A DNA stretch of 64,000 nucleotides. Origin: Gelatoporia subvermispora B. Its lineage: Eukaryota; Basidiomycota; Agaricomycetes; Polyporales; Gelatoporiaceae. The DNA lies in the NCBI GenBank assembly GCA_000320605.2, contig KB445805.1, forward strand, positions 843,430 to 907,429, written 5' to 3'. A model generated the notes under the pieces. The model saw only the letters and a program-made list of their open reading frames with translations, did no database searches and was not told where the DNA came from. This document shows positions 5,852 through 61,638 of this stretch, piece by piece. Position 1 is the first letter of the stretch. The number at the start of each line of letters is the position of its first letter. Position numbers and translations under genes: made by a program.

Positions 5852-8078
5852 TCAAGACCCTGTCGTCTTTTTGCTCGCCTTCCTCCTCTGTCCCTGGCCA
5901 GGCTTCGCTCGTTCCTCTATGTACTTACACTCACGGTGTTTATCCCTGCAATGCCTGGTGAGGTCACATTCGTCAATACAGTGGCTGATTTCGACGGAAG
6001 GGTAAACCTCACTTGCATGCGGTGCGTTTACCGTCGACGATGACAGGCAAGCACTTCAGGTGGACTCCGCGGCATCCCGTACAGGATAGCTTGCTCCTGC
6101 GGTGCACGCGCTTGCCTTTGCACTCTTCGCGCTCTACACATGGCACGCCGCGTTTCAAGCAGGTCCTGTGTGATATCAGGTGAGCACGATAGTGTCCAGG
6201 GATAAGCCAAATACTCACGTGCACGATTCTGAAGGTGAAGGTTTGTCGCACTTCTTTTTGCGATCGTGGCAGTGGGCGCATGCAGGAAGTCTGAGTTCCT
6301 CATTGTCCTCGAGCGCGCCAATGGTACTCGGACCTGAGACTGGCCCGTGTGGGTGCATGCCCGCGACCTCGGCGGACTCAGCTTCGTCTCTAGGTGTAGC
6401 TGACGAAGCAATGGAAGACGGTCCTGGCATGCTCGGCGGGCTGGTGCAGATCACTGGACCCGCCGAATGCTCGTCAAATACTGGCGCTGCTAGAAGTACC
6501 AGTCAGCACTTCACGAGTGCGAACGGCTTGCGGCGACACTCACGCGCTTCGGTGCAAGGCGCCTGCCTTGTTGCCTGCACTCGGGCTGGTTGCTTATGTC
6601 TTGCACGCTTGATCTGCGGCTGTGCTTCCGCCTCTTCACCTACGTCAGCACGCCTCTTGCGGACGTTTCCCATCCCTGCGGTCGCCAATTGGACAATCGG
6701 TCGGTCGACCGTCACAATGTTCGCCCTAGTTGTGGGCATCAGAGGCGGTGCCGCAACTTGAGGGGAGTACGATGGGTAGAAGTCTGTTGCATGGTTCAAC
6801 ACATCGCTCCGCGAAGTGAAGCCAGCAGCGACGTACCTGCAGGGACCGACGAGTACTGCGTCATGTGCTCGTATCCAGGCTGGGCAGGTGGATGAACGTA
6901 GCCATTTGGTGCGCTTGGAACCTCTTGTGGCATGTCCTGCGATGTATCTCAGTGGCAAGACGTGACGAGGGACCGTCGAGCTCACCATCCACGGCGTAGC
7001 GTGCAGAGGCTGGTCATTGCAGGCAAACTGTGCATACTGTGTGCGCTCGAATGCGGCGTCCTGCGGGACATGCATGGGCTGCTGATAGCTGGACATGGTG
7101 TCTTGCCCTGGGTACGAAGGCGTCTAGAGCTAGCATCAGCTTGTTGTATCTACAGGTCAGCGTTCGTCGGAAACTTACCATGTACGGCGACTGAGACAGT
7201 TGTCCAGGTCCACCGTATGGGTAATTTTCTGATGTTTGTTGATCTGTAAGAGAATAGCATGTTAGATCTGGCGCAGCGCTCTAATCAATCGGACTCACCA
7301 AAGTGGGCTGCTGCCATGTTGACGAAGCTAGCAACACCCATGTCGATCATTGATGGAGTGATACTGCTCGAGCCCGAAGACGAGTCCTCGATGCCCTGAG
7401 CAAGCATCGCTCCGCCGTGGTATTGAATGCTTGAGTCAGCATTCAGGTTAGTGGCGGTGTCGGGAGTCGGGGGAGGTGCGCCGTAGGTATGTCTGGCGTC
7501 GTATTGGGAGTCGGGCAGGGTCGCGTACTGGCCTTGCGGGTACGAGGCCATTGGCGTACCTCTGATGCCCTCCATCGCGGTGCCGACCACAGGAGAATCC
7601 CCCATCGATCCAGAGGGAGGGAACAGGACCGGGTCGAGCAACGACTGCTGCCCGCCCGGTCCTTCCCCATGGAATCCTGGTTGAAGCCCGCTGCCGACAT
7701 GCTGCCGTGTATGTGAACAAAAGTATGAAGGCGAGCTGGATGAATACTGACCTCTCCGAGCCAAGCCACCTCCGATAACTCTTCTGGTTGAGGTGGTGGG
7801 GACGCCTGCTCGATACCGAGCTGGTCCAGAGGGTGGCCGTACTCCAAGGTGGTATTGTAGGCCTGTCAATTGTGTGTAAGTTTAGTCTCGCCGTAGACAA
7901 ATGCGACACTGACCACACTGACCGGCATAGAGTCCGCCGATGGTTCAAACTGCCCGTTCAGAGCCGGAGGATGGAGTCCCAGAGAGATATACATTTCAGA
8001 AAGATCGTCGCCATCCCCGGCGTTCGGGGGGATATAATGCGCCAGAGGAACATGTGGGAACACAAAGTCAAGGGACAT
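5852..8078 (-). CDS. Gene A1: C-terminal tandem Zn2Cys6 protein (putative DNA-binding regulator)
   Basis: Ten exons (high to low): 8078-7923, 7862-7752, 7701-7299, 7243-7179, 7123-6986, 6936-6837, 6783-6544, 6489-6219, 6165-6013 and 5954-5852. All introns are GT-AG, 48-61 bases. The product is 579 residues. Residues 1-470 are Pro/Ser/Gln/Tyr-rich and probably disordered. Cluster 1 (Cys475-504) is C-x2-C-x6-C-x8-C-x2-C-x6-C. Cluster 2 (Cys523-555) is C-x2-C-x6-C-x11-C-x2-C-x6-C. A basic tail ends the protein. In each cluster a phase-2 intron falls between Cys4 and Cys5. Zn2Cys6 domains are fungal DNA-binding modules holding two zinc ions, normally single and near the N-terminus, so this layout is atypical. 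Nuclear location and DNA binding are inferred from the family. Paralogue A2 is at 56037-58272. Confidence 0.85.
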
Positions 8079-8650
8079 CTTAGCAAGGACTGGGGCGACT
8101 CTGCGAAAAGTGAGAAGAGTGCTGAGGTGCGTGCGGGGGGACGAGCGGCTTAGAGGACGAAGATGTGTCTTGTCCACATTCAGCACGGCGGCGGCGTATT
8201 AATAACGCTCGGCAACAGGCCTCGTTAATATTGTTATGCGAGCACGTCCGAGCGGTGAAGACATTTTGAAGCCTCGGTCCCCGCCCTGAGTACAAATCGG
8301 GACAACATCTCGCGCCGCGTACGGCGCACCCTCTTTGCGTGCTCGCCGTGCCGGGTTATACGGAATTGCATCAGACGCGTCGGTAATCAGGCGGGGAGCA
8401 CGCGCACTTTTGACCGGATACCGCGCCTCAGATGTCCGCCGTCGCACGGACCGCAGTTCCAGCAGTTTGTACCGCGACCGCTAATGTCACGCGAGTGGCA
8501 CATTGGTCAGATGTGCCATCTCGCTCAGCAATCACTCCCAAGAAGACACCGATGCACCGCCCAACACTTGAACAGTCCGAAACTTCGTACGGCTGGATAA
8601 ACGGCTGAGCAAGAGATTTACACGAGAACCAAATTATGTGCCCCAAATTT
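8079..8650 (-). promoter_or_regulatory. Conserved 5' region of gene A1
   Basis: The 570 bases before the A1 start match those before A2 (55470-56036) closely, with long identical stretches around the shared CGCCTGATTACCGACGCG and TTGGGAGTGATTGCTGAGC. An ATTATTAATAC element lies about 110 bases before the ATG in both. Overlapping GTG- and TTG-start frames exist in both copies, but base differences do not favour third positions, so I read this as regulatory DNA rather than coding sequence. Confidence 0.6.
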
Positions 8651-9343: not shown

Positions 9344-10086
9344 CTATTGATCGACATCCGACGGACTGGCGACAGACTCGTCCTCCGACTCCACCAATGT
9401 CTCGCTCTCAATATCCGTACATTGCCCAGACTCTTGCTTGATGGGTTCCCCGCCACTGTCCTTGACCTCGTATCTGCAGACCTTCTTCGTCCGCGTGCAC
9501 GAACTGCCAAAAGTTATGTCAGCTACGTGAGGAACAGGATTATGGAGACCGTGCGGCGGCGCCCAGGATGAGGACAAAGAAAAATGCAAGCATGTGCATC
9601 GTCAGATTCCGATCTCGCTATCGCGTCACCGCTGTGGCTTTTGGTGGTGTGCTCACCTGCATTTTGTCCGCTGACCGTCCAGCGTACCATACGTACAACT
9701 CCTTTTGGAGTCGCGGCATGCGATGCAAGCTTGTGGCATTTTGAAACGGAGCGTTTTCCAGCCGTTCGTCGGCACGACACATTCTTTGTGAGTATTGTCA
9801 CACCGTCTACAGATTATAATATATCAGTCGCTGTTCCACGAAAGCGAGAGACCACACCCGATACTCGTCACAACCCTCGCGTGGATGCACGAGAGCATGT
9901 GGCCCGTCGTAGGGAGCGGAAGAATATCACTCACTTGCACTTCTCGCTCAATATTCCCCTTCTACATTTTGTTTTCGCTTCGCGACATCTTTGACAGGCG
10001 GGATACACAGGAGACTTCAGGCATGGTCGGACCTCCGATTGTCGCTCAGGTGGGACCTGGATGCCATACTCGTATTGGACCGACAT
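9344..10086 (-). CDS. Gene D: short tandem Zn2Cys6 protein, 5' end uncertain
   Basis: The supported exons are 10086-9935, 9806-9657 and 9503-9344, giving 153 residues from the ATG at 10086. Cluster 1 (Cys31-60) is C-x2-C-x6-C-x8-C-x2-C-x6-C. Cluster 2 (Cys78-110) is C-x2-C-x6-C-x11-C-x2-C-x6-C. Both introns (128 and 153 bases) are phase 2 between Cys4 and Cys5, as in A1, A2, B and C. The sequence before cluster 1 resembles that position in genes B and C. An acidic Ser/Glu-rich tail of about 43 residues follows the last Cys. The gene may extend upstream: a 130-codon frame starts with ATG at 10753, but I could not find a convincing splice joining it. All twelve Cys are intact. Confidence 0.65.
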
Positions 10087-11326: not shown

Positions 11327-12553
11327 TCATGGTATCGGTATGTTCTGTTCTACGATGGCGGTATCTGGCTGATCCTTGCTTCCCTTGCGTCGCCCCGGTG
11401 GTTGTTTTGGCCTACGTATGCAAGGGCATGACTTCCTTTGACATCGTCTGTGATATACGAAGCTCATGAGCTCTGCATTAATTCAAAGCTCATGAGAATC
11501 CTCCAACGCATTGGATCTCTCATCAGAGGTCGTCACCGAAGCCTTTGAACCCAGAACTTAAATGAACGTGCTCGGCCCTCCTCGCTGACTGACATACTCA
11601 ACCAAGACAAGCGAACACTCACTTGCATGAAGTCGACCCTTCCATGGGAACGCACTTGACTTTCTTTTTTCGGCACCTTTCGCAAGCCTTCGTCAGCCCA
11701 CGCTCCGGTGGTCCGTTGGTCCGTGCTACCCCACTTGCGATCATGCTCCTTGGCCGTGCAGACGTATCCTCGACAATCTGTGACGAGTCGGGGAACAGAA
11801 GAGAGCCGAAGACCTGCGTATGGCCCGTGACTGATAAGTTCCCTTGGATGGGTTGTACTACATGATACGTATGAGTGCATGTATCACAGCCGTGACTCAA
11901 GAAAGAACAAGTATCGAGATATCCTTCGTGCGTGTTCTTTCGAAAATATGTTGGCGAGGCAGACTCTGGTGTTCTATAGTCCCGGCTCATACCGAGGTTC
12001 GGATGCATGGCCTCCTACGCATTTTAAATCATTATACCGCTCGTGTTACTGCTGAACAGGTCATACTGCGTACTGACCTCAGATCGGAAGGTCTGGACCT
12101 GATGGTTGAGACCCTCATTGGGTTCATTTGGGGTTTTGACCTGTTCAGCACTTGCATAGTGCCTTGCAGGCTCGTAGGTGCTCGCGTAAAGCATCTGTGG
12201 TCCCTGTGCGGATTCAGCCACAGATCATCGTCCCATGGCAAAACTTACACTTGAATATGGATGAGGTGGCCAAAGCATTGCGCTGCTGGTCCAGCCGGGG
12301 CTTTGCATACTCGGTCCAACAGTGTGCCGCTGCAGGTCTGTGGCGACATGTTGGTCTTGCATTGCGTCCTGGCGTACGGAGATATGACCACTATAGGAGA
12401 TACATGAAGGATCAGGCTCACCTCCAGAAGATCTGATGACTGCGACATCGACATCTCCCATAACCCAAATGAGCCTGGAGCAGGCCCCGGTGCGCTATGC
12501 ATGCCATCTCGGCTGGTGGGCTGGGAGAGAAGTGGAGAATTTAAATGTGACAT
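11327..12553 (-). CDS. Gene E: single C-terminal Zn2Cys6 protein with hybrid exon arrangement
   Basis: Clear exons (high to low) are 12553-12422, 12368-12249, one starting at 12203, 11857-11623 and 11447-11327; the join between about 12140 and 11857 is tentative. The start gives a Ser/Pro/Met-rich segment of 44 residues. The cluster is C-x2-C-x6-C-x8-C-x2-C-x6-C, complete, with a phase-2 intron of 175 bases between Cys4 and Cys5. The 5' half matches cluster 1 of A1, A2 and D (x8 spacing). The 3' half and its basic tail (PGRRKGSK) match the end of cluster 2 of A1/A2 (PGCGRRKRASK). So E looks like a family gene that has lost the middle cassette exon. The role is inferred as a DNA-binding regulator. 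Confidence 0.65.
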
Positions 12554-15610: not shown

Positions 15611-18600
15611 TCACGGACGCGGAGGCATGCTGTACCGCCGGTCATCTGCCGGTCTTCCATACCCGCCCCTGCCATACGAAGGCGGCGACCTCGGCGGAGG
15701 CATCCTCGATATCGGCTCCCTCCTATCATATCCATACCCACCGGCATCCGGTGCTCGCTCCCTATTAGCATACTCCCGCTCGCGCAGGCTGCGCGAATCA
15801 GGGCCAGCACCGTACGGCGGGCCAGTTGGTGCAGGTTCCCTATCGTAGTACGTTCCACCGCCCGCAGGCGGTGGCGGCGTGCGCATGCGGGGGGCGTAGT
15901 CCGCAGGCGCACTCCCACGCGGCGGTGGGTCGGCCGCAGCAGGCGCAGAGGCGTAGTACCCGTCCCTGCCGTACGCATCGTCGCGCGCCCGCTTTACCGG
16001 CGGACGCAAGTCGTCGACGGGCGGCGGGCCGCCTCTGCGCACGGGGCTCGGGCTCCTTGGGCGCACGCGCGAGAACGGCGGTGCAGAGGGGCTCGCATCG
16101 ACAGGCGGGTAGCGCGGGCGGTCACGGTCGCGGTCGCGATCCCGGTCTCGGTCGATGTCCCGGCCGTACCCGCGATCGTCGCCCGTGTATGCATCGCTGA
16201 GCCGTGAGCTCAGTGGGCGCGGCTCGAAGGGGCGCGCGTGTGCGGCGGGCGGGTCTGGGGCAGGGAACCCGCCTGAGACGCGCCGCTCGCGCTCCTCGCG
16301 CGTCTCCCAGGGGGGTGGGCCCGCGTCGCGCTCGGGGTAGCGCGTATTGCGGTCGCGGTCACGGTCGAACTCCCGCACAGGCGCCGTCGAGGAGCGGTCC
16401 CAGTTGCGGTCCCAGTCTTCGGGGAGGCGGCGCTCATCGGGGCGCCAGTCGCGGTTATTATACGCCTGCGAGTCGACGGGCGGGCGGCGGGGCGAGTCGG
16501 CGTAAGTGTCGTTGGGCACCCATCCGCGTTCGGTACGTGCTGGATAGGAATCTGCCGGGGGTGGTGGAGGCGGGGGCGGAGGCGGAGAAGAGCGCCGGTA
16601 TGGAGGACGTGTTGCAGAAAAGCGGCTTGGCGGCGGGTCCACATCCATCATGTCTCCGCGCCGGTCCACGTATCGGTCAGAGTCGGGGCGGTACGGCGCA
16701 CGATCCCGCGGAGGCGCATCTGCAGTACGGTAGTCCAGGATGTCGGCACGAGCTGGCGAGGGCGGCCGCTTGAATGGCGGACGCGAGTTGTCACGTGCCA
16801 CAGAGGCGGGACGGGAGGACACGAAGGGAGCAGGCCGGTGTCCACGGTCGCTGTGCGCAGGCGAAGGAGGGCGCGCGAAACGGTCTGAGACAGGCGGGCG
16901 CCCGCGATCGTCGGGGCGGCCAGCGCGGTCGACTGGAGGCAGTGGACGGACAGGCTCGGCTAGTAGGATCTTGCGGTCTTCAGGCGGAGCGATGCCAGGG
17001 CCGGGGCGAACAGCACGATCAGAAACAGGAGGTACAGTAGGAGGCGGAGGCCGAGACAGGCGGTCATCAGTGGGTATCGAGTGTACTGGCCGTTCTTCTA
17101 AGACAGGAGGGTGTGACAATCGTTCTTCTAAGCTAGGCGCAGGACGCGAGAGACGTTCCTCAAGCCTTGGAGGAGGTGCATGCCGATCGTCTGGTCTGCT
17201 TATAGGAATTCCGGGAGGACCACTGATGCGTTCCTGGAGCGATGGTGGAGCACGGCTTATTCTGTCTTCTAGAGGGGGAGCCAATCGAGGCGTACGATCT
17301 TCAGGCGGGCGAGCGCCACGCTCTTCCAGGATCGGAGGCGGTCGCAGAGGAGGCAAATCTCCAGGCGGACCAACAGCAGGGCGGACAGAGCGGTCTTCCG
17401 CAGGAGGCACTACCACACGACGGTCTTCGATCGGAGGCCTGGTTTGTCTGTCGACTGCGGGACGAGCTAGAGGTAAAGGCGGACGACGGTCATCAATAGG
17501 CGGGCGGCGATCATCTACAGGGGGCCGACGGTCGTCCACTGGCGGCGGACGAGCCCTGTCCGCGCTCGCCATGGGCGGTGGCGGCGGACGCCTCTCATCG
17601 GACAGGCGGGCCTGACGGTCACTAGTAACAGGCGAGGGCGGGACAGGGCGCCTGTCATCAGTAGGCCTTACCGCAGCAGCAGGTACAGGTCCGGGCGGCG
17701 TGCGCCGCTCCTCAGGTCTCACAGGTCTGTCGGCGCCTGGCGGCAGAGTGGCGGGCAGGCGGCGGTCATCGAATGGCGGGCGCACAGGGCGGTCTCCAGC
17801 AGCAGGCGGGGGTCCGGGAACGCGACGGTCGTCGCCTGGGGGAGGCCGGCGATCTTCAGGCAGCTGTGGGCGCGCTGTGGGCGAAGGCGGCATGCGTCTG
17901 TCTTCAGGCGGTCTCATTTGGCGGTCGTTGGAGCTTGGAGGCGGCGGAGGCGGCCCGCGCCTGTCTTCGAGCGAGCGGATCTGTCTGTCGTCTGCAGCTG
18001 GAGGCGGGGCGGGACGACGGTCGTCGACTGGTGGTCGCGTTGGGCTAGAGTCCGGAGGCGATCTGTGCACAGGCTTATCGCGATCTTCGACAATGGGGCG
18101 CGGGGGCGCGCCGCGTTCCTCTGGCGGGGAGCGCACGTCGGGTCCTCTAGCATCGTACCTGCGTCCATTATCGTACCGCGAGTCAAAGTGCCGCGAGTCT
18201 GGCGGCGGAGGCAGAGGCCCCCGTCGGTCGAACGGCCGCGCACGGTCGTCCCGTCGCTCGTCGCGGAATCGCTCGTGGGCTCCCCTAGGATCACGGCGAT
18301 CCCGGTCGCGCTCCCATTCCCTGCCATCTCGATCCCTGTCGCGCTCTCGCTCCCGATCCTTCTCTCTGTCGTAGAATCCACGACGATCGTAGCCAATACC
18401 TGCGCCGTTGTTGCCATGATAGCCGTTGCTATTGCCGTTACCGTTGCCGCCGCCGTAGCGGGCCTTGTCATCTTGGCCGTTGCGGTACCAGTCTCGAGGA
18501 GGCGGGCGCGTGTCATCCCTAGAGTCGGAGGCAGTAGACTTGGTTGGAGAAGCATCTGGTGGCCGTGCCGCAGACGTAGAGTCACGCACAGGGGACCTAT

Positions 18601-19624
18601 CCAAGATCGATCGCACTACACTAAGAGGCTCCTGCTTGACCACAGGTTGATGTTGTCTTGCGTCGCTGGGCTGCGCAGAGTCAGGGTGAGGTGCCCGCTG
18701 AGAGGTCTCAGGGATAGCAGAAGGGGCAGAGGGCTTGTCGTCCATAGCCTGAGGTTGCGGTCTAGATGCAGGAGTGGATCCGGGTGCAGGCGTTGAGGGT
18801 GCAGCAGACACGGGCCCCGAGCTGGCTGTCTGTAAAAGGGAAGAGGCGGTGTCAGCAGGATACGGAATAACAGCGGGAGTCGAGGCAGGCAGCACATTTG
18901 TGGGCGGTTGCGGCTGGCTCACTGCTTTCGCGCTCTCCTTAGCATCGCTAGCTTGGGATGGTCTGCGGGTCCCAGATACAGCTGACCCATTGATGGCAGT
19001 GGTCGTTCCAGCAGGAGGGAGATCATTGCGTAGCTTAGACGTATCAAAGCGGTCTTGGGCTTGGTGAGGGGATTCAGAGGGCGTTACAGGAGCCTGAGCT
19101 GAAGCTGGAGACGACTGTGGACCTAGGTAGAGAGTTGCAAGAGCAAGAGGCTGCGGAACAGCGCGGAAGAATTCGTGCTGGCCGTTCTTGATCTGCTGCT
19201 TGAGTTTCTCTAGTACTTCAAGGTCACTCTGTCCCGGTGGGAGATCTGGATTAGGTGCGATTGGCTGGTGCTGCTGTTGTGGCGGTGACTGGTGAAAGAA
19301 CTGCTGAGGTGGCGGGCCCATGGGAGAGTGTTGCGATCCAAAGTTCGGTCCAGGCATGGGCTGCATGTACGGAACGTTGTTGTAGGGAAACGGGGCGAAA
19401 CCAGGATTGATGTTCATGGCGAAACCGGGTGGAGGCATGTTGGACTGGTTGCCGGCACTGGAAGCGATCGAGAAGGGCGAGGACATGATGCTGCCAGCAG
19501 GCTCCTCCATAGGCGTGGGGATAAGAAATGAACTCTCGGGAGTCTCTGTGAGCGTCGTCACTGTCCGTTCGCGGTTCATAACATTGTTGCGGCCCTTGCG
19601 CTTCTTGTTTTGCCTTGTCGCCAT
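15611..19624 (-). CDS. Large Arg/Pro/Asp-rich disordered protein, 1337 residues
   Basis: A single uninterrupted frame runs from ATG at 19624 to TGA at 15611. Residues 1-30 are basic (KKRKGR, a likely nuclear localisation signal). Residues about 50-130 are Met/Pro/Gln-rich. The only helix-like, conserved-looking segment is around 130-170 (LEVLEKLKQQIKNGQHEFF). Residues about 400-470 are RD/RE repeats like those in RNA-processing proteins. Residues about 490-1000 are many degenerate copies of a DDRRPPP-type unit, and the C-terminus has more RDRD blocks and Gly/Tyr/Arg stretches. The composition suggests a nuclear RNA-associated or phase-separating protein, but that is inference and I do not recognise the family. 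Long open frames on the opposite strand are composition shadows. Confidence 0.8.
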   Translation of the reverse strand: MATRQNKKRKGRNNVMNRERTVTTLTETPESSFLIPTPMEEPAGSIMSSPFSIASSAGNQSNMPPPGFAMNINPGFAPFPYNNVPYMQPMPGPNFGSQHSPMGPPPQQFFHQSPPQQQHQPIAPNPDLPPGQSDLEVLEKLKQQIKNGQHEFFRAVPQPLALATLYLGPQSSPASAQAPVTPSESPHQAQDRFDTSKLRNDLPPAGTTTAINGSAVSGTRRPSQASDAKESAKAVSQPQPPTNVLPASTPAVIPYPADTASSLLQTASSGPVSAAPSTPAPGSTPASRPQPQAMDDKPSAPSAIPETSQRAPHPDSAQPSDARQHQPVVKQEPLSVVRSILDRSPVRDSTSAARPPDASPTKSTASDSRDDTRPPPRDWYRNGQDDKARYGGGNGNGNSNGYHGNNGAGIGYDRRGFYDREKDRERERDRDRDGREWERDRDRRDPRGAHERFRDERRDDRARPFDRRGPLPPPPDSRHFDSRYDNGRRYDARGPDVRSPPEERGAPPRPIVEDRDKPVHRSPPDSSPTRPPVDDRRPAPPPAADDRQIRSLEDRRGPPPPPPSSNDRQMRPPEDRRMPPSPTARPQLPEDRRPPPGDDRRVPGPPPAAGDRPVRPPFDDRRLPATLPPGADRPVRPEERRTPPGPVPAAAVRPTDDRRPVPPSPVTSDRQARLSDERRPPPPPMASADRARPPPVDDRRPPVDDRRPPIDDRRPPLPLARPAVDRQTRPPIEDRRVVVPPAEDRSVRPAVGPPGDLPPLRPPPILEERGARPPEDRTPRLAPPLEDRISRAPPSLQERISGPPGIPISRPDDRHAPPPRLEERLSRPAPSLEERLSHPPVLEERPVHSIPTDDRLSRPPPPTVPPVSDRAVRPGPGIAPPEDRKILLAEPVRPLPPVDRAGRPDDRGRPPVSDRFARPPSPAHSDRGHRPAPFVSSRPASVARDNSRPPFKRPPSPARADILDYRTADAPPRDRAPYRPDSDRYVDRRGDMMDVDPPPSRFSATRPPYRRSSPPPPPPPPPPADSYPARTERGWVPNDTYADSPRRPPVDSQAYNNRDWRPDERRLPEDWDRNWDRSSTAPVREFDRDRDRNTRYPERDAGPPPWETREERERRVSGGFPAPDPPAAHARPFEPRPLSSRLSDAYTGDDRGYGRDIDRDRDRDRDRDRPRYPPVDASPSAPPFSRVRPRSPSPVRRGGPPPVDDLRPPVKRARDDAYGRDGYYASAPAAADPPPRGSAPADYAPRMRTPPPPAGGGTYYDREPAPTGPPYGAGPDSRSLREREYANRERAPDAGGYGYDRREPISRMPPPRSPPSYGRGGYGRPADDRRYSMPPRP

Positions 19625-19645
19625 CTAATACCAGTCCAACCCCCG

Positions 19646-37694: not shown

Positions 37695-40600
37695 ATGTTG
37701 GTCCTGACCGGAACTTCATTCCTCTCGGTCTCGAAACGGGACACGCTCCTGCGGAACATTCAGGAAAGGTGCCCCAAGATCGCCTCAGTCGATGCTGTCT
37801 ACCTCCACCTGGTGGCGTGCTCCTCGGCAGCGGCAAAAGATGAGCTCTCGAAGCTGCAGTCCCCCTACAGACAGATCCTCGATCGCCTGCTCGCATACGG
37901 CGACGATATCAGTCTGCCCTCAACAGCAGAGGCGTTGCGCGCGTCCCACAACGTCGCTTTCGTACTCCCTCGGCCTGGTTCCATTTCCCCTTGGTCCAGC
38001 AAAGCCACAGATATCTCTGCCATCTGCAACTTGTTCAACTATGTTGAACGAATTGAACGTGGTGTCGTCTTCACCTTCACTACGACCGAAGGGAACGTTA
38101 CGACAGAGGATCTGAGCACGTTCTCCCATCTCATCCATGACCGCATGACGCAGACTGTGCAGTTGTCACTTCCGGATGCAACTGCTCTGTTCGCTCACAA
38201 GGTACCAAGCCCTCTGCGCACTGTCGACTTGCTTTCCGAGGGAAGTTCGGACGCCCGAGAACGGCTCGTTGCAGCAAACAGAGAACTGGGCCTGGCTCTG
38301 TCCACCGATGAGATCGACTACCTCGTCGATGCCTTCGTCTCGGGTTCCTCCCCCATCAAGCGCAACCCTACGGATGCAGAGCTCTTCATGTTTGCTCAGG
38401 TCAACTCAGAACACTGTCGTCATAAGATCTTCAACGCATCCTGGACGATCGATGGAGCACCTCGCGACGTTTCCCTATTCCAGATGATCCGCAACACCGA
38501 GAAGTTGAATGGGACCGGCACGATCTCCGCCTACTCTGACAATGCTGCTGTCTTTGAGGGACATCCAGCCCCTCGCTTCGCCGTGACGTACTCTGCGTCA
38601 GAGGGCGCCGATGGTGTCCCCCTTTACCACTCGCAAGTCGAAGACATGCCTATTCTTGTCAAGGTCGAGACTCACAATCACCCGACCGCTGTCTCTCCTT
38701 ATCCCGGCGCTGCGACTGGCTCTGGAGGGGAGATCCGGGATGAGGGTGCCGTCGGACGTGGATCCAAGCCCAAGGCTGGCCTCTCTGGCTTCACTGTTTC
38801 CAACTTGCTGATTCCTGGTCATGAACAACCCTGGGAGACCGACTTTGGCCGTCCGGCACATATCGCATCTCCCTTCGACATTATGGTCGAGGGCCCCCTC
38901 GGCGCAAGCGCATTCAACAACGAATTTGGTCGCCCAGCGCTCGCGGGCTATTTCCGTACGTTCGCGGAGACCGTTCCCGCCGAGGATGGCAAGTCGGAGA
39001 TTAGAGGATACCACAAGCCCATTATGATCGCCGGTGGTCTCGGGAACGTCCGCACACCATTCGCCATAAAGTCCAAGATCTCTGCGGGGGCGAAGATCAT
39101 CGTTCTTGGTGGACCTGGTATGCTGATTGGTCTTGGTGGGGGTGCTGCGAGCAGTCAAGTGTCCGGCGCGGGTTCGGCAGAGCTAGACTTCGCGAGCGTG
39201 CAGAGGGATAATGCGGAGATGCAGCGCAGATGCCAGCAGGTGATCGACGCTTGCGCCAATATGGGCGAGGGGAACCCTATCCAGTCTATCCATGACGTCG
39301 GAGCTGGAGGACTCTCTAATGCGCTGCCCGAATTGGTACACGACTCAGACTTGGGTGCTGTCTTCGAGATTCGGGATGTGCTTGTCGCCGACTCCAGTAT
39401 GTCGCCCATGGAGATTTGGTGTAACGAGAGCCAGGAGCGGTACGTTCTTGCGGTCTCACCGGAGAAGGAAGAGCTCTTCAGGGGTCTTGCGATGCGCGAA
39501 CGCTGCCCGTTCTCGGTCGTCGGCGTCGCCACTGCGGAAGAGGAGCTCATTGTGACCGACCGCTTGCTCAAGCAAGATGTCATCCACCTCAAGATGTCGA
39601 CACTCTTCGGCAAGCCTCCTCGCATGCACCGCACAGATGTGTCTCGATCGGTAGCCCACGTGCCCTTCGACAACACACTGAGCAGTTACTTGTCTCAAAG
39701 CAGCCTGGAGGAGCGTCTCACCACAGCAGTAGACCGTGTCCTCCGTCTTCCTTCAGTCGGGTCGAAGTCCTTCCTCATCACCATTGGCGATCGCACGATT
39801 ACTGGTCTGGTCACCCGGGACCAGATGGTCGGGCCCTGGCAAGTTCCAGTCGCCGACGTCGCCGTCACACGCTCGTCGTACGGATTTGATGTGCTCTCCG
39901 GAGAAGCCATGGCAATGGGCGAGAGGACGCCAGTGGCGTTGCTCAATCCGGCCGCGTCGGCGCGTATGGCGGTGGCGGAGTCGCTCACAAACCTTGTTGC
40001 GGCCAACATTGGCGAGCTCAACCGTGTCAAGCTCAGCGCCAACTGGATGTGCGCTGCGTCGAAGTCTGGAGAGGGTGTCGCTCTGTACGATGCTGTCAAG
40101 GCTGTCGGGCTGGACCTGTGCCCCGCGCTCGGCGTCGGAATCCCCGTCGGCAAGGACTCAATGTCGATGTCGATGAACTGGAAGGAGGGCGTCGAGCAGC
40201 GGGAAGTCAGTTCGCCGCTTTCCCTCATTGTTACCGCCTTTGCTGGAGTAGAGAACGTCGGCGCAACCTGGACTCCGCAGCTGCAGACCAACGTTGGGGA
40301 GGCGACCGTGCTGCTTTTCTTCGACCTCGCAGATGGCAAGGAGCGCCTTGGCGGTTCCGCCATCGCCCAAGTCTTCAAGCAAATCGGTTCAGAAGCTCCG
40401 GACGTTGAGGACCCCGCAAAGCTGAAGGCCTTCTTGGTGGGCTCTCAGGACGCGCGGGTGAGACAACCCGGCGTTGTCCTCGCATACCACGACAGGTCAG
40501 ACGGAGGTCTTTTCACTGCGGTTGCAGAGATGTCTTTCGCTGGACGTGCTGGCGTCACTATCGATCTGGATGTTCTAAAGCAGAGCAGCAGTGTCGTTGC

Positions 40601-41756
40601 CGCTTTGTTCAACGAGGAGCTGGGTGCTGTCCTTCAAGTGCGCGATTCTGCCGTCGAGACCGTCCAGGCAGCATTCGCCGAGGCCGGTTTCCCTACTTCG
40701 TGTATCTACCGTCTGGGCAAGGTCGCCCCCTCCGTGTCAGATCAGGCTATCACCATCATACACACGTCGTCCGTCGTCTTCAGCAGTACCCGTGCAGATC
40801 TCCAACAGAAGTGGGCAGAGACTTCTTACCGCATGCAGGCGCTACGGGACGACCCCAAGGGCGCCCAGGAGGAATTCGGACTGATCGCCGACGACAAGCA
40901 CACCGGCCTCTTCTACGACCTCACCTTCAGTCCAGAACCGGCGCGGCCCCTTTCCGTCAGACCCAAGGTTGCCATCCTGCGCGAGCAGGGAGTCAACGGC
41001 CAAGTTGAGATGGCGTGGGCGTTCACCGCAGCAGGCTTTGACGCTGTCGACGTTCACATGTCAGACATCCTCCGCGGTACTACATCGCTGTCCGTCTTCC
41101 GTGGCTTCGCTGCCTGTGGTGGCTTCTCATACGGCGACGTCCTCGGTGCTGGGAAGGGCTGGGCCAATTCGGTCCTGCTGAACGAAACCGCGCGGCGCGA
41201 GTTTGTGGAGTTCTTCCGCCGCGAGGATACCTTCGCTCTGGGCGTTTGCAATGGATGTCAGTTCATGAGCCATCTGCGAGAGATCATCCCAGGTGCGCAG
41301 GATTGGCCTGACTTCAAGCCCAACCGCAGCGAGCGATTCGAAGGCCGCGTCTGCATGGTAGAGGTCGTTCCAGGGCCAGTCACAAGCCGCTCCGTCTTCT
41401 TGAGCGATATGGTTGGTTCCAAGCTGCCCGTGGCGGTGGCACACGGCGAGGGCCGTGTCTCGTTCGCGGGCGCGCAGCAGAGCGAGGCGCTGACGTTCCA
41501 GGGCCTCGTCGCCGTCCGGTATGTCGACCCAGCTGGGACGCCGACGGAGGTGTACCCCCTTAACCCGAACGGCAGTCCTGGCGGTATTACTGGTGTGCAG
41601 ACTCCCAACGGTCGCGTATTGGCGCTCATGCCTCACCCCGAACGTGTCACGACATTGGAGAGTAACAGTTGGTATCCACTGGAGTTCAAGGATAGTTGGA
41701 AGGGCGAGGGCCCGTGGTTCAGGCTGTTCCAGAATGCAAGGAAGTGGTGTGCGTGA
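37695..41756 (+). CDS. ADE6: Phosphoribosylformylglycinamidine synthase (FGAM synthase)
   Basis: This enzyme uses ATP and glutamine to convert FGAR to FGAM, step four of purine synthesis, in the cytosol. A single uninterrupted frame of 1353 residues matches the large eukaryotic form (human about 1338). I chose the ATG at 37695; an in-frame GTG nine bases earlier is not needed. It shows the N-terminal and linker region, two AIRS-type ATP/substrate domains ([24 protein letters not shown] and [13 protein letters not shown] in the first half; GKDSMSMSM in the second) and the C-terminal glutaminase. The glutaminase triad is visible: Cys1185 in GVCNGCQ, and His1314 and Glu1316 in MPHPERV. It lies convergent with TRS65 and divergent from the glycosyltransferase. 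Absence of introns in so long a gene is notable beside its heavily spliced neighbours. Confidence 0.97.
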
Positions 41757-45722: not shown

Positions 45723-48275
45723 CTAGTCTACATCCATTTCAGCCGGTCCGTCTTCCCTCTTCTCCTCCGCGGGTTGCTGCTGCTCGCCCTGCGGAGTCTC
45801 TTGTCCGCTCTTGGGCGTCTCTGCGCCCTCAACCTTCGGGGCTTTGGGCTTTGGGCGGGTGAGGATGGGCGTCGCAAGGTAGATGATCTCATCGCGCTTC
45901 TTCATGATCTCCGCGCTGGTGAGGACCGGGTCGGCATCCTTGGCGCGCTCGCTCTGGCGGACGATCTGATCCTCGAGCCACTTCTGGACCGTCGCGCACT
46001 TCTCAATGATGGGCTGCTTGTCCTTCTCGTCGATGTGTGCGAAGCGCTCCTCACTCGACGTCGCCTGCGCCATGTAGCTGTTGATCGTCTCGCGCAGCTG
46101 GGCCACGTTCTTGCTCCGCTCCTCCGCCTCCTTGTACCGGAACGAGATCGGGTCGCCCAGCGTCTTCAGCTTGTCGAGACGCTCCGCGTACACCGATTTG
46201 CTCGCATCCTCGCCCTCCTCGCTGTACAGCCAGTCCTCAGCCTCCTGTAGCGCCGCGAGCAGCTTCTCCTTCTCGTCCGCCTTGACGTACGACGCATAAC
46301 GTTCGCCGAGGCGGCTCCGAGTGTCGTAGATGTACTCCTCAAGAGCATTTTTGCGGTCCTGTCGACTCGTCAGCATCAACTCGTCGTATGCGACCGCGCA
46401 AGATACTCACCTCGGTGTCCTTGACAAGCTTGTCAGCGGCGTGCATCTCCGCCTCCTGCTCCTTGAACTTGTTAAGGGCAGCGGCGTCGAGGTTGGCGCC
46501 CCTCCACTCGAAGGGAACATCCTTCTTACGCGTGACCCGCTTCTTCTTGGGGGCCTCCTGCGACTCGCCGTCGACCTGCATAGGCTCTTCTTTCTCTTCG
46601 ATCTCCTCAACGTACGCCTGCTCAAACGACATGATACCATGCAGGTTCAGGCGCGTCTTGACCTTGACGCATGTGAGGTCGCCCTTGGCGTCGGGGCCAA
46701 CCTGCTTCGCGGCGAAGTGCGCGACAAAGGGGTTGATGCCACCAGGCAGGGCAGAGGGCTCGGCGTAGCGCGCCTCGATCTCGAACGGCTCCTTGCGGTA
46801 GAACGTGAGCACCTTGGTCGAGGGGATGGAGTTGCCCTTGGGGAAAACGACCAGCTCGGTGTCCTCGTCCGCGTCCTCTGCCGTGGGCTGCCACTGCACC
46901 TTGACGGAGTAGGGCGTGATGTCGTGCAGCGTGAACTCACGGACGCGGAAGACGGGCGAGAGCATCGCACACGCGAAGGTCGCACCGCGCGCAGCAGCCT
47001 CGTCCTGGTTGAGCGTCGTCGACAGGGTCTTGCCAGGGAAGACGCTCTGGATCTTCGCGCGGACGGCAGGGATACGTGTGCAGCCACCGATGAGCTCGAT
47101 CGCGTCGATCTGCTCGAGCGTCAGGCCGGACTCGGCGAGCGCCTGGTGGAGCGGGCTGGGGATGCGGTCGAGCACAACCTGGATGAGCTGCTCGTACTCG
47201 TCGCGGTTGAGGCGCGAGCTCGCGTCGATGTCGTTCATGATGCTCTCCACGTTCAGCGGCGCCTCTGCATTCGCGGACAGCACCTTCTTCACCTTGTCGC
47301 ATCCCGCAGCGAGCCGGAACATCGCCTTGGGGTTCGAGAGCACGTCGATCTTGTACTTCTGCTTGAACTCCGCGGCAAAGTGCCGCAGGAGTGCGTAATC
47401 GATGTCGCGCCCGCCCGCATGCCGGTCGAATGCCGTCGATTTGACCGTGAGCTGGCCCTTGGAGAAGGCGACAACGGTGCACGAGGTGGAGGAGTGGCCG
47501 ACGTCGACGAAGACGACGTGACGCGGGTTTTCGGGCTCGGGCAGGTCCGACTTGGTGATACCGTAGCCGAGGGCGACCGCGGTAGTGTCGTTGATCAGCC
47601 GGAGGCAGTTGAGACCCGCGATCTGCGCGGCATCGAGCAATGCGCGGCGCTGGATATCGGTGAACCAGCCGGGGACGGTGATCACGATGTCGGTCACGCC
47701 TGTCCGCAGCTCGTTCGCGGCAATGTCGCGCAGCTTGCCCAGGTACATCGCAGTGATTTGCGTGATAGTGAACTGCCGCTGCTCGCCGAGGTAATTGACC
47801 TTAAAAACAGAAAGTGAGATGACGCCGAGGCTGTGAGGGCTGAGTGCGACGCACCTGAGCACCGAGCGTGCCGTTGATGTCAACCAGCTTCACATGGGTG
47901 AACTTTTGCTCGACCTCCTGGATCTCCGGGTCCTGGAATGTGCGGCCAATGAGCCTCTTGAGGGAGCCGATGGTGTTGCGGAAGTTGGACGTTTCGAGAG
48001 TCTTTGCGGCCTCGCCAATTGCTCGCTGCTTGTGGCCAAAGGAGACGAGTGATCTAAGATGATGAAATGGGTCAGCATAGAGTCCTAGGTATCACTCACA
48101 TTGTCAAAAAAACCACTTACGGTGTAGCACGATTCGAGACCTCGTTTACGATGATATCGATACCGCGGTGTCTCGCGACACCGATCTGCCAGACGTTAGT
48201 ACGTTCAACCACGGTTCTAGCAATTGTGCTCACCTTGCTGTGAAGCGCACCAAGATCAACGCCGACAACAGCCAT
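45723..48275 (-). CDS. SSE1: Hsp110-family chaperone / Hsp70 nucleotide exchange factor
   Basis: Cytosolic Hsp110 (Sse1) releases ADP from Hsp70 and holds unfolded proteins. The first exon is 48275-48234 (14 codons, MAVVGVDLGALHSK) and the second starts at 48185. Further exons cover the region to 47883, then a long block to 46410 and the last 46370-45723, ending in EMDVD. The actin-like ATPase domain shows VGVDLG, the INDTTAVALGYG and VFVDVGHSST phosphate loops, and ELIGGCTRIPAV. A substrate-binding beta domain, an acidic/basic insert (EEIEEKEEPMQVDGE then KKKRVTRKK) and a helical lid follow. The length of about 785 residues fits Hsp110 rather than Hsp70, and there is no EEVD end. A heat-shock-element array lies just upstream. 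Confidence 0.95.
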
Positions 48276-50580: not shown

Positions 50581-52458
50581 TCAGCGAGATTTATACACGC
50601 AGCGGTCGCCGAGCCTGATACATCTCCTGAGGATCATTCACGTCAGTCCCGGGGTCAAATTAGAGAAGATCTATACACGCTCAAACAGGTGCACCAGGTC
50701 GCCATGGATCGCATTGCTGCATACACCTCAGTCTAAGAGCTGGGGTAGTAGACACTCACTCGCATTTACTCATTCTCCCATCGACTGACACCCGGTTGTT
50801 GCACTTCGCTCTCCGTCGGCGACATGGTTCACAGGCTCGAGTAGATTTGTTGACGGGGTTGGCTCCACTTGGTACGCACTCTATACGCCTCTTCGCGCAA
50901 CGCCTGTGACAAAGAACAGATCAACGTCAACGACCAACTCAGGGACAATGGATTCAACGGCGTGATTGACTCAGGTAGAGTGCCATTATACTCACGTGCA
51001 CGTTCCGGACACATGGATATCGCATCTGTAATGACGCTTGTGACAGGGAATACACGCTGGCCGTACTGTGACCTCGCCTGCTTCTCGGGGCAGCCACCGG
51101 CCGTCTGCTACAGTACGACTTGACTGAAGATTATTCAATATGACAGGTGCAGACTCTGGTCCAGTGTAACTCGTGGACGATGTTGTGTCAACGGTAGAGC
51201 AGGCATCCCAGTCAGGGACTGCTGTAGGTGCGTCTTCCTCGTGATGCGTGGAATGACCGCAGAGTGCCTCAGAGTCGCATGGCGTAGAGGCTGGACATTT
51301 GGTCAGCTCTCCATGTACACATCCAACATTATATGAGGCCTTACCAGCTCCTGTGCCCTTGATGCCCTGCTTCTGATTCGCGTCGCATTGTGCATGTTCT
51401 GTCTCGAAGGGACTCCCTGACAGAGACTCGTCGGGTGTCGTATCAGCGCCCCATAGTAGCAAGTATCCGTTGGATTCTTGAGTGTCGCGGAATGTTCTCT
51501 CTGCAACATTGTCGGTACTATGGAAGCCGAAATTTGCTATGTGTACCTCAGTACAGCCGTTCAGTAAGCGGACTCAACGTGCCCCACCTGACAGTATAGG
51601 ATAGGGATCCATCAAACTCAATCCATGCCCCCGGAGCTCGGTAAAGTCGAGGAACGAAATTGGCAATGAAGGTAGCTGTCCTGCGTCATTCTATCGCTTG
51701 ATCAATCAGCACTCTACAGAACAAAATGCAAACGAAGCTGACCATTCGTGAGAGGGCATGGTACACTTGCCAGTCTTGCGCGTATGGTGCATTTTCGAAT
51801 GTATGATGGTCTGTAAACATGCATCATGAGTATAGAACCAGCATTTTGCGTAAGGAAAGTCATCATACTGTCGTAACCCATATGTGAGGATGTTGAATAG
51901 TCGTGACTACTCTCGCCCATTGGAGCCATTGTGCCAGACCCTCCGCTTGCGATCGCAAAATGCGATGTATTGCCGTCATGGGTGGGGTTCTTGCTGGACA
52001 TGGTGTAATCGTAATAAACATCACCCACATGACCGAGCTGGTACGAGGAATAATTGATCTCCAAATTCGATGATGTTCCATAAGACGTGTCGGAGACTAC
52101 AGGGAATGGTGCAGAGGCGCCGTACAGCGGCGGCGGGCTCAGTGAGGCCTAGAAGAAATGCAGCATAAGCCAAGACTCGCTGAAAATGATCATAAGTGAA
52201 CACCTCAGTAACAGCCCTGTTACTGGCACTTTGAGTTGTATTACCGGGGGCGGCGTCCATCTGTAGCGTTCTGGATAGCGTCGGTATGTTTTCATCCGTG
52301 ACGGTACCATGAATCGTGTTACAGGTCGGAGACCGCGATCCACCGAAATTGTAGACGTCAAGCTCAGGCAGCGTGGGGCCATACGTTTGTTGTCCGTGTG
52401 CCGTATACATACGTATGAAGGCTGGGCCTGCGTATGGGAGATAGTGCGACGAGTCCAT
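50581..52458 (-). CDS. Gene B: C-terminal tandem Zn2Cys6 protein
   Basis: Eight exons (high to low): 52458-52204, 52148-51869, 51810-51767, 51690-51588, 51476-51345, 51290-50996, 50903-50760 and 50626-50581. All are GT-AG and in phase, giving 432 residues. Cluster 1 (Cys351-379) is C-x2-C-x6-C-x7-C-x2-C-x6-C. Cluster 2 (Cys394-427) is C-x2-C-x6-C-x12-C-x2-C-x6-C. The protein ends five residues after the last Cys. The N-terminal 340 residues are Ser/Thr/Gly/Tyr-rich and probably disordered. A 44-base mini-exon with TFENAPYAQDW matches similar exons of gene C (TFKNVPNARDW) and of A1/A2 (ENYPY). The last four full exon sizes shared with gene C (103, 144 and 46 bases, plus the cluster-1 exon) show common origin. 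DNA binding is inferred from the family. Confidence 0.82.
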
Positions 52459-56036: not shown

Positions 56037-58272
56037 ATGTCCTTCGACTTCGAGCTCCCGCGTGTTCCTCTAGCGCAGCACATCCCACCGAACGCCGAGG
56101 GAAATGAAAATCTTTTTGAAATGTATACGACACTGGGCATCCCTCTAGCTCTGGACGGGCAATTTGAACTATCAATGGATTTCACACGGGTCAGTGTCGC
56201 GTTTATTCACAGCGTGGCTGAACTTACATGCAATTCACAGACCTACAACACGGCCTTGGATCACGGCTCCCCACTACACCAGCTCGGTATCAAGCAGGTG
56301 TCCACACCTCAATCAGAGACATTACCGGAGGTGGCCTGGTTCGGTGAGGCGAGTACTATTGATTGAAAGTGCCGTCCTACATTTGCTTACACACCTGGCA
56401 GCACGTCGACAGCGGGGTTCAACCAGGATTCCACGGAGACGGATCGGGCGAGCAGCAGTCGCTGCTCCCCACGGTCCTGTTTCCTTCCTTCGGACCGATA
56501 GGGAGCCCCCTTGCATTCGGCGCCGCGACGGAGGGCATCAGGGGTACGCCGACGACCCCACAAGGCCAGTATGCAGTCCTGCCCGATCCCCAATACGACG
56601 CCTACCAGGCCTACGGCGCACCTCCCCCGCCTCCCGCCCCCGCCTCTATCCTGAACGCTGAGCCCGTAGCGCCTAGCATTGAATACTACGGCGGAGCGAT
56701 CCTCGCTTACGACACCGAGGACTCGTTCTCGGGCTCGAGCGGCATTGCTCCATTCATGATCGACATGGGTACTGCTAGCTTCGTCAACATTGCAGCAGCC
56801 CAGTTTGGTGTGCCCGATCGTTGAGAGTGCTGCGCCAGATCTGACATGCTATTCTCTTACAGATCAACATCCATTTGAAAATTACCCATATGAGAGACTT
56901 GGACAGTTGTCCCAGCCCGCATACATGGTGAGTTTCGAACGAACGCTGACCTGTAGATACTACGAACTGATGCTGGTTCTAGGAGCGTTCGTACCCAGGG
57001 CAAGTCACCATGTCCAGCTATCAGCAGCCCGTGCACGTCCAGCAGGACCCCACATTCGAGTACCCGCAGTACCCGCAGTGTGCCTACAGTGACCAGCCAC
57101 TGTACGCTGAACCATGGATGGTGAGTTGCAACGGTTCCTCGTCGTGTCCTGCAACTCAGATACATCGTAGGACATGCCACGACAGGATCCAAGCGCACCA
57201 AATGGTTACGTTCATCCACCTGTCCAGCCTGGATACGAGCACATGATGCAGTACTCGTCAGCCCCTGCAGGTACGTCGCTATTGGCTTCATTGCGCGGAG
57301 CGATGTGTTGAGCCATGCAACAGACTTCTACCCATCGTACTCCCCTCAAGTCGCGGTACCGCCCCTGATGCCCACAACTAGGGCGAACATTGTGACCGTC
57401 GATCAACAGACTGTCCAACTGACAGCTGCAGCGATGGGGAGCGTCCGCAAGAGACGTGGTGACGCCGAGGGAGATACGGAAGCGCAGCCGGAGATCAAAA
57501 GTGCAAGGCATAAGCAACCAGCCCGAGTGCAGGCAACAAAACAGGCGCCTAGCGCCGAAGCAAGTGAGTGTCGCCGCAAGTTGTTTGCATTCATGAGTGT
57601 CAACCAGTGCTTCCAGTAACCCTAGCGACTGGCGAATATTCGGCGAGCCCGACGATCAGCGACAGCGTGTCAAGTATGTTGGGACTGTCGACTGGCACCG
57701 ACGTGTCCTGTATTAGTTCGTCAGTCACGCCTAGCGACGAAGTGGGGTCCACTGGTGTCGGGGTCCTGCACCCACACGAGCCAGTCCCAGGTCCGAGTCT
57801 CATCGACATTGTCAAGGCACGCATGGGACTTAGGTTCCCTGCATGTGCCCACTGCCATGCAAGCAAGAAGAAGTGCGATAAGCCTTCGGCGTCAGGATCG
57901 TGCACGTGAGTATACAGTTCATCCATGGACATCATCATGCTCACCAGATACAATACAGGACATGCTTGTTAGCTGGCGTGCTATGTGTAGTGCGCGACGA
58001 GTGCAAAGGCAAGCTCGTGCACTGCAGGAGCAAGCTGTCTTGTACGGGATGCCGCGAGGCGCAGGTAAAATGCTCCCCTGTCATCGTCAAGGGAAAGCGC
58101 ATCGCATGCCAGTGAGGTCTACCTTTCCATCGGAACCAGCCTCTGGACTGACGAATGCGACCTCACCAGGAATTGTAAAGATAGAGGCCGTGAGTGCAAG
58201 TATGTAGAGGAACGAGCGAAGCCTGGCTGCGGACGGAGGAAGAGGGCGAGCAAAAAGACGATAGGGTCTTGA
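56037..58272 (+). CDS. Gene A2: C-terminal tandem Zn2Cys6 protein, paralogue of A1
   Basis: Ten exons: 56037-56189, 56241-56348, 56402-56807, 56863-56927, 56983-57120, 57171-57270, 57324-57563, 57617-57905, 57959-58111 and 58170-58272. All phases agree, giving 584 residues. Cluster 1 has Cys480, 483, 490, 499, 502 and 509; cluster 2 has Cys528, 531, 538, 550, 553 and 560. Two extra Cys (515, 522) lie between the clusters. A basic tail (CGRRKRASKK) closes the protein. Residues 1-470 are Pro/Gln/Tyr/Ser-rich, as in many activator regions. Intron 2 (56349-56401) starts with GC, not GT, where A1 has GT; the nearby GT in GGTGAG would shift frame. Both clusters being intact argues for function. A nuclear DNA- or protein-binding role is inferred. 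Confidence 0.85.
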
Positions 58273-58820
58273 GAGGTTTGCAGAATTGTTTGAGAATATG
58301 ATGTACATGACGTTGGTGGTTGGACCCCTTCTGAATGTACATACCGAGCGCCATCGAACGTCTGCGAATCCGTAATAATCCTTCGCAGATGAACGAGCCG
58401 AAAGTAGACCATCCCGCATTGCTCCGATGATCAGCACAGATTCTTGCCAGGAAGAGTGCGCAGGTAGACTTTAGCTACGGAACAAGATGTTGCACCAAAA
58501 TATGCGATGAGTATTCAATCGGGACGGCGTCTGTTCGCACCGACATGTGTCCCGACGTTGGCCGGGTTTTCCACAGCATCGAGGGGAATGACATGGGATG
58601 TAAGTCAAGAGACGACGAGGGAATGAGTGTGAGCGGCATGCGCTGGCAAATTGGGCGTGCAAGAAGAAATCTCTGGTCGGATATCTCCGGGCACTCGGGA
58701 ACTTCCCAATAAGGCAGCATGGTAACCTATGTCGGACAGACGGTGAAGCTGCTTATAGTATTTTGTGAAACGGGCGTAATTATCAGAGCCAACGGCGATA
58801 GAGAAAATATTGACCTCACG
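58273..58820. other. 3' region of A2 and intergenic
   Basis: To about 58710 this is the conserved downstream part of the duplication. No gene is seen. Confidence 0.4.
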
Positions 58821-59405: not shown

Positions 59406-59611
59406 GTTGGCAGACGAAATCAACGGTACGCTCACCTGGCATCCCCACCCTCACAACAAACTCTTTGACGTACCAGTTTTCATGCATTAGTAATGGCAAA
59501 TTGTACATACTATTTCATGGAGCATTGGTCTGGCTAAAGCAAAGCGCCGACATTTCTATTCGTGGGTGACTCATACGCCCTCCAACCTTGTCGAACACTA
59601 ATGAGATGTCT

Positions 59612-61638
59612 TCAGCGCAACTTGTACTCGCAGTAATGGCCCATCTTGGTACACCTCCTGAAAGTTTTCTCGTGTAAGTCTCATCATCAGATCATCAAGG
59701 AAAGAAGGTCATGTGCTTAGGTCACAGTGAAACGCGCCACCGGACGACTCGATACTCACTTGCATCTACTCATTCTCCCGTCGATTGACAACCGATTGTT
59801 GCATTTAACCTTGCGTATATGACATCGCACACAGGCTTGAGCAGACTTGGTGATGGGTTGTAATCCACTCGGCATACACTGCACCTCCATTTGGTTGCAA
59901 CGTCTGAGTCAAAGGAATGGTCAACTTCGATTCGGTGAGAGCGAACCAAACGAATGCGTCGGGCTTAGGTGTGTCGTTGACTTCACTCACATGCATGTCC
60001 CAGACTCATCCATGTTGCACCTGTAGCGATACTCGCGGCAGCGAAGACATGATGGCCATACGATGACTTCGCTTGCTTGTTGGGGAAGCCACCACTCGTC
60101 TGGCAGATCAACCCCTGGCTCAAACTCGACCGAAAGGCCAGGCACGTTACCCTCGTGCTCGACTTGGCATGGAAGCGCTACCACGGAGAAATTATGCGAC
60201 GCCTCTCCGTGGCGGAATTCTGAGGTGGGTGCGTCTCCGGTGTGATCCATGAGCTGATCACAGAGCGCAGGCGCTACCTTGACTTCATTTGTCGAGTACA
60301 GCGTGGATCCTAAACACTTTGTCAGACCCTGATGCAAAAGCCTAGCATCATGTGAAACGCACCGCACTCTGTCTCTCGGTTCTGTTCCAGCCCTATAGGT
60401 CTCTTTCCGAGAGCTCTCTCTGACGGCCATCTGTCGAGTGACGTATTGAGACCCCACAGACGCATATATCCACCGGATGCTTGCGCGCCATAGAGTGACG
60501 GGTGGCTGTAGGATCCAGTAACTACCACAAGGCAACTCAGGATACTTACTATTCGAGTGGACCCTGCGAGACGCACCTGAGGACATGGCACGAGTGCCCA
60601 TCGGGGTCGTATATGGTAGCTCATGCCCGAAGAAATTGAGCAGTAGAAGTGGCAAATTATCCAGCTGCGCTGCAACGTACTGTGGGTCGATCGATGAGCT
60701 TAATTATAGGCCGGGGCATAGGCAAAACTGACTATTTGCGGAAAATTGAAATTCCATTGCCAATCTCTCGCATTTGGTACATTTTTGAATGTGCTCTGGT
60801 CTGTAAAAAGCGCATTACCCTAGTCAGTATAATTCTACCTCGCATAGAACGAAAGACATACAATGGCCGTAAGTATTCTGATTCCCCAACCCGGCTAAAA
60901 GTGGGCTGATTGTAGTCGATGATGCAGTACCGGGACCTCCAAAGGTAGGCAAACCGCGCACATCGACGTCGCACGAAGACTCTGCATGACCCCATGAAGT
61001 GATCTCCGCTTCCAAACTTGACCAAATATAGTTTGCATCTTCCGCATGTGGATCACGATGTTGCGTAGGAACCAAAACATTAGACGTCAGTGGCGCCAAT
61101 GAAGCAATCACCGGACACTGAAGATTCTCCAGGATGCCGTCCGGTTCCGTTAGTGACCGGCTGTAGTGAACATCATTCGTAACGCAAATGGAGGACAGTG
61201 GCTTGTGCAGGCCACTGGCGAACTGTGTGACCGAATGTATGTCGAGGAAGCGCTCATAACCATCAATATGTACAGGGAACGACGACGATGCGTTGCAGGG
61301 GATCAGCGTAGTCGACTGTGCCTACGTATCAACCAGGTGTGAGTCAAGGTGCGAAGCGAAGCAATCGACGATCTCACCTCGGCAGCGACCAGAGTTTCTG
61401 TGGTATGTAGCCGACCCGAAGATGGGCCTTGCGGGAGGTCTAAGGCCAGAACGGGGATGCCTTCACCAGTTGGGAGATGAACTTCGTTGGTCACCGGAGA
61501 CCGTTCTCCGGAGAGCTTGAGGTCATCTACCTCCGAGAATATAGAGCGGTGCACATCAGTTACAGTGTGATTTATTGCGAGGTTCGAGGCATCTAAGAGG
61601 TGCGGGTCTTGAGGCAGAAGGAACGGTGGCAACTCCAT
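59612..61638 (-). CDS. Gene C: C-terminal tandem Zn2Cys6 protein, paralogue of B
   Basis: Eight exons (high to low): 61638-61378, 61315-60862, 60800-60733, 60679-60577, 60479-60363, 60309-59991, 59903-59760 and 59657-59612. All are GT-AG and in phase, giving 503 residues. Cluster 1 (Cys422-450) is C-x2-C-x6-C-x7-C-x2-C-x6-C. Cluster 2 (Cys465-498) is C-x2-C-x6-C-x12-C-x2-C-x6-C, with five residues after it. The N-terminus is acidic and Leu/Pro-rich, and residues 90-260 are mixed. The exon with TFKNVPNARDW matches the mini-exon of gene B. A CTATAAA box lies near 61714, about 80 bases before the ATG. All twelve Cys are present. Regulator function is inferred from the domain. Confidence 0.82.

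Follow-up and report, generated by a model that had tools for sequence, protein, structure and literature searches.

Few classes of fungal regulators are as large as the Zn2Cys6 proteins. In the textbook form each protein carries one cluster and reaches a bipartite site by dimerizing, normally through a coiled coil. Here we describe a gene family of Gelatoporia subvermispora B (Polyporales, Gelatoporiaceae; genome 37.7 Mb) whose members are predicted to encode two Zn2Cys6 clusters in tandem. The analysis centered on a window of 64,000 nucleotides, positions 843430–907429 of contig KB445805.1 (hereafter C15), in which an initial annotation had proposed five such genes, called A1, A2, B, C, and D.

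Several described proteins share parts of this layout. Zn2Cys6 clusters are described as “almost universally” N-terminal, the exceptions named being PacX, Ume6, and Czf1, with C-terminal clusters (PMC4832277). PacX (A. nidulans), Ume6, and Czf1 resemble the tandem family in having the cluster towards the C-terminus but are given one cluster each there, and PacX has in addition a strong coiled coil at its N-terminus (PMC4832277); our genes had two clusters, and a coiled coil was unseen in a crude scan. A survey of Pleurotus ostreatus places the cluster C-terminally in 4/66 zinc cluster proteins, and its entry for PoZCP55 gives two zinc clusters at the C-terminus along with three septin domains (PMC7295025). 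As listed, PoZCP55 resembles the tandem family in being a basidiomycete protein with a C-terminal pair of clusters and differs in the septin domains; the septin/zinc-cluster combination is possibly a fused gene model. CCG_02279 and CCM_00582, from a Tolypocladium/Cordyceps survey, also have two C6 domains in one protein (PMC6471507) but are ascomycete, come from a paragraph on DUF3468 proteins, and have loops of 5 and 6 residues. Monomeric DNA binding by a Zn2Cys6 domain is cited for AlcR and described as only possible for Pho7 in a further paper (PMC5559640). These two offer a precedent for binding as a monomer, and cluster 2 of the tandem family aligns with AlcR, but each has one cluster.

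The open-licence literature, which leaves most subscription journals outside, yielded no paper on a tandem C-terminal Zn2Cys6 family. Within that literature, the earlier statement that no described family has this layout stood for studied families but has to be narrowed by the listing of PoZCP55 and the known single C-terminal clusters. Since C-terminal clusters and proteins with two C6 domains are already listed, we regard the tandem layout as a variation on the Zn2Cys6 theme and not a new kind. Compared with Gal4-type (PF00172) factors, the family was alike in Cys spacing, in basic residues between Cys2 and Cys3, in a predicted two-helix fold, and in Pfam scores over the cut-off. It differed in having two clusters, usually C-terminal, instead of a single N-terminal one, and in lacking Fungal_trans among the proteins scanned; the crude scan detected no coiled coil.

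When the window was read in six frames and spliced, each of the five genes gave two complete Zn2Cys6 clusters, as the initial annotation had predicted from its hand splicing. The exon order was the same throughout: an exon with Cys1–4, a phase-2 GT..AG intron, an exon with Cys5–6, the linker, and Cys1'–4', a second phase-2 GT..AG intron, and an exon with Cys5'–6'. Each intron interrupts the codon following Cys4 between its second and third bases. Read-through of a cluster intron stops immediately because the GTGAG donor in that phase contains TGA. The genes and clusters are as follows, in window coordinates.

5852–8078, minus strand: gene A1, public model CERSUDRAFT_76506 plus its missing last exon; tandem clusters C-terminal
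6489–6219, 6165–6013, and 5954–5852, minus strand: last three exons of A1
6138–6280, minus strand: A1 cluster 1 (Cys1–Cys6), split by the intron 6218–6166; matched by Pfam Zn_clus
5927–6083, minus strand: A1 cluster 2, split by the intron 6012–5955; without a separate Pfam match
9344–10086, minus strand: gene D; 153 residues if translation begins at the gene's own ATG, a putative start; public fragment CERSUDRAFT_87133
9779–9996, minus strand: D cluster 1
9476–9727, minus strand: D cluster 2
50581–51507, minus strand: gene C, 3' part; 51507 is the start of the reading, not a gene limit
Exon ending at 50996, then 50903–50760 and 50626–50581, minus strand: 3' exons of C
50876–51054, minus strand: C cluster 1
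50599–50833, minus strand: C cluster 2
56037–58272, plus strand: gene A2, public model CERSUDRAFT_98366 plus its missing last exon
57844–57986, plus strand: A2 cluster 1
58041–58197, plus strand: A2 cluster 2
59612–61638, minus strand: gene B, 3' part modeled; 61638 is the ATG of the initial annotation, a putative start
Exon ending at 59991, then 59903–59760 and 59657–59612, minus strand: 3' exons of B
59876–60049, minus strand: B cluster 1
59630–59833, minus strand: B cluster 2

The linker between the clusters was 18 residues in A1 and A2, 14 in B and C, and 17 in D, within the 14–18 proposed beforehand. Placement at the protein end held for A1 and A2 (24 residues after the pair) and for B and C (5 residues), but not for D, where 43 residues follow, 13 of them acidic and 3 basic. 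Read from its own ATG, D carries the pair at residues 31–110 of 153; an in-frame stop precedes this ATG with no other ATG in between, which makes 153 residues the simplest reading, though a 5' exon could have been missed. The N-terminal region of A1 and A2 was rich in Pro, Ala, and Ser with basic stretches resembling nuclear localization signals, and is probably disordered. No coiled coil appeared in the spliced proteins when heptads were scanned crudely, with no positive control, or in low-confidence structure models.

The public gene models count against this splicing. Those of A1 and A2 begin at window positions 8078 and 56037, cross the first junction, and end one residue past Cys4', reading through the donor to the TGA and so lacking the last exon; with the spliced last exon in place of the model end, simple arithmetic gives ~578 residues for A1 and ~561 for A2. 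CERSUDRAFT_69833, a copy at 157 kb on a second contig (C1), also departs from our splicing, being out of frame after the first Cys4 and without most of both clusters. Were the models of A1 and A2 correct, the true proteins would end at Cys4' with an incomplete second cluster, which we consider extremely improbable. The stop that is read into is the TGA of the GTGAG-type donor itself, and at 14/14 loci the last exon supplies C-x6-C in phase. The public fragment covering the 3' part of D is continuous over the last junction, and a protein of another genus, OBBRIDRAFT_666347 of Obba rivulosa (Gelatoporiaceae), is continuous over both junction positions with all 12 Cys present. This Obba protein was the sole match outside G. 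subvermispora in protein database searches; at 65% identity to D over the alignment, it is likely the orthologue of D. Its structure model had no helix longer than 6 residues, and the predicted local distance difference test (pLDDT) score was low outside the clusters.

All five copies first proposed were confirmed, and the family proved larger, numbering at least 14 genes, 8 on C15 and 6 on C1. A split-cluster grammar scan of C15 743431–988158 (244.7 kb) placed tandem genes near 770.6, 780.2, 791.5, 849.7 (A1), 853.4 (D), 894.5 (C), 901.3 (A2), and 903.5 kb (B). In total it recovered 27 clusters and 8 tandem pairs, more than expected by chance: 30 first-order shuffles contained 0 clusters and 0 pairs. 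The six genes on C1, between 157 and 308 kb, were reached by protein search with D; in the copies at 157 and 175 kb, visual inspection was used to join the last exon (donor GTC), and the junction of the 285 kb copy requires an AAG acceptor. Searches with the C1 members gave no additional locus with a clear match, all match counts being lower bounds. Three weak matches elsewhere in the genome were examined as candidate members and are not tandem genes. The copies had been called independent, but they are related paralogues: A1 and A2 are 66% identical, and the tandem regions of the paralogues are 24–46% identical to that of A2, except A1 at 73%.

Despite this divergence, all 12 Cys were kept in the 14 paralogues and the Obba protein, as had been expected for the five copies. 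Both clusters fitted C-x2-C-x6-C-x5-12-C-x2-C-x6-8-C in all 15 rows, and the invariant columns of the 14-row paralogue alignment were the 12 Cys only. A 10-row alignment including the Obba protein additionally kept an Asp-Gly (D-G) pair in the second loop; A2, T791, and T770 (the latter two near 791.5 and 770.6 kb), which stand outside that alignment, lack the Asp or the loop. The second loop of T770 has six residues instead of 11–12, and its placement in the family is therefore less sure. We scanned the spliced proteins, leaving out the copies S300 and S308, with Pfam Zn_clus (PF00172; curated cut-off 21 bits), counting stretches at E ≤ 1. In this check, proposed beforehand, all 13 tandem proteins scanned scored above 21 bits, and 12 of them (A2, D, and all ten others) had two matching stretches, with one in A1. 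Among the public models, that of A1 reached 21.6 bits, that of A2 19.2 bits, under the cut-off, and CERSUDRAFT_69833 had no match. A Pfam scan of A1, A2, D, these three models, and the Obba protein, but not of the N-terminal regions of B and C, found no Fungal_trans (middle homology) domain.

Selection was measured as the Nei–Gojobori ratio of nonsynonymous to synonymous rates (dN/dS) over the aligned coding parts, and overall it is purifying. Values were 0.38 for B/C, 0.24 for T780/T791, and 0.12, 0.12, and 0.16 among S281, S300, and S308; A1 and A2 gave 0.22 and 0.30 against T780, where synonymous sites are near saturation. Cluster dN/dS was below 1 wherever computable (both clusters in 5/8 pairs). 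Retention of the 12 Cys together with these ratios fits selection on the pair, as initially argued. In several pairs the non-Cys cluster residues evolve no slower than the remainder. The alignments describe a conserved putative zinc scaffold with a variable surface. An improbable alternative is that these are expanding but decaying paralogues, with clusters real by descent, many copies weakly constrained, and conservation confined to D and its Obba relative. In its favor, database searches found a close relative in another species only for D, the copies are arranged in local arrays, and A1/A2 reach 0.49 overall and 1.93 in the 24-codon tail. Decay would, however, break the Cys codons and junctions, and the 12 Cys codons and GT..AG junctions are intact at 14/14 loci (one junction via the AAG acceptor), while dN/dS is 0.12–0.24 in T780/T791 and the S281/S300/S308 trio.

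We favor, at a probability of roughly 55%, a lineage-specific branch of the Gal4-type Zn2Cys6 proteins that arose by duplication of the DNA-binding module within the gene and in which two clusters in cis would take the place of a coiled-coil dimer. Both clusters may bind zinc and contact DNA, and the proteins may act as regulators. Using a register that we take to be that of Gal4 Lys18, K/R stands at the corresponding position of the first cluster in 13/15 rows and of the second in 12/15, a retention that leans towards DNA contact by both. A rather unlikely alternative assigns DNA binding to one cluster, mostly cluster 1, and makes the other a protein–protein, RNA, or structural zinc module, the protein acting as a monomer or as a dimer through cluster 2. 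In support of it, three of the 15 second clusters lack the K/R, the Cys3–Cys4 loop of cluster 2 is longer (11–12 residues in 14/15 rows, against 7–8 in cluster 1), Pfam matches only cluster 1 in A1, and matches to solved domains are weaker for cluster 2. Selection points both ways: in A1/A2, dN/dS rises from 0.26 in cluster 1 to 0.52 in cluster 2, but the order is reversed in B/C (0.47 and 0.28), T780/T791 (0.35 and 0.24), and S300/S308 (0.29 and 0.21), with few sites each. The solved structures that cluster 2 does match belong to the DNA-binding domains of two regulators, AlcR and Hap1.

Single-cluster genes with the same intron bear on the origin of the pair. Besides the tandem genes, the C15 scan found ten genes of a second local family, called F-type, and one further single-cluster gene, E. 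Two of these genes lie in the window.

2332–2694, minus strand: gene F, 3' part; a single C-terminal cluster containing this intron, with KKRGRPP after it; belongs to the second local family
11327–11759, minus strand: gene E, 3' part; a single C-terminal cluster, interrupted by the phase-2 intron seen in the tandem genes

A phase-2 intron following Cys4 was present in both clusters of the 14 tandem genes, in the ten F-type genes, and in E. Of eight other Zn_clus loci fetched from this genome, five had an unbroken cluster, in a sample biased to unbroken ones. Most simply, the pair would have arisen when the cluster exons of a single-cluster gene containing the phase-2 intron were duplicated, the tree of clusters being too short for proof. 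A split-cluster scan of the 3' part of E found no second cluster; its C-terminal tail is PPGRRKG, and it is a clear member of neither family. The F-type family (at least ten genes; gene F in the window and C15 743.8–846.1 kb) has one C-terminal cluster with a GRP(P) tail and an upstream motif, W...L..LFxR(S/A)CDxC, and some copies adjoin tandem genes. One F-type pair at 800.7/804.1 kb of C15 (plus strand) is mirrored by another at 846.1/842.7 kb (minus strand), an arrangement suggestive of inverted segmental duplication around the left edge of the window.

Three other open frames of the window were noted. A single open frame of 1358 codons at 37680–41756 (plus strand) encodes a formylglycinamide ribonucleotide (FGAR) amidotransferase of purine synthesis, and the region therefore also carries housekeeping genes. 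An Hsp70-like open frame lies at 46339–47889 (minus strand), and its antisense frame matches Pfam NAD-GH (PF10712), presumably a spurious family built on antisense frames. An open frame of 1337 codons at 15611–19624 (minus strand) had no Pfam match.

Under the favored reading of two DNA-binding clusters in one protein, the pair, joined by a linker of 14–18 residues, would occupy two neighboring major grooves. A single molecule would read two CGG-like half-sites, making a dimerizing coiled coil unnecessary, and the N-terminal region (or the acidic tail of D) would activate or repress transcription. More tentatively, intragenic duplication may have produced a covalent “built-in dimer” whose two half-sites, fixed in order and polarity, would give non-palindromic composite sites without partner choice, an architecture that could have radiated in Gelatoporiaceae into two loci of rapidly diverging regulators. 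The public models of A1 and A2, without their last exon, illustrate that automatic gene models can conceal half of a DNA-binding domain. If the reading is correct, two clusters in cis would be another route to a bipartite site, preserved across two genera and no fewer than 14 copies, and the tandem family would offer a natural test of the effect of linker length and cluster order on spacing.

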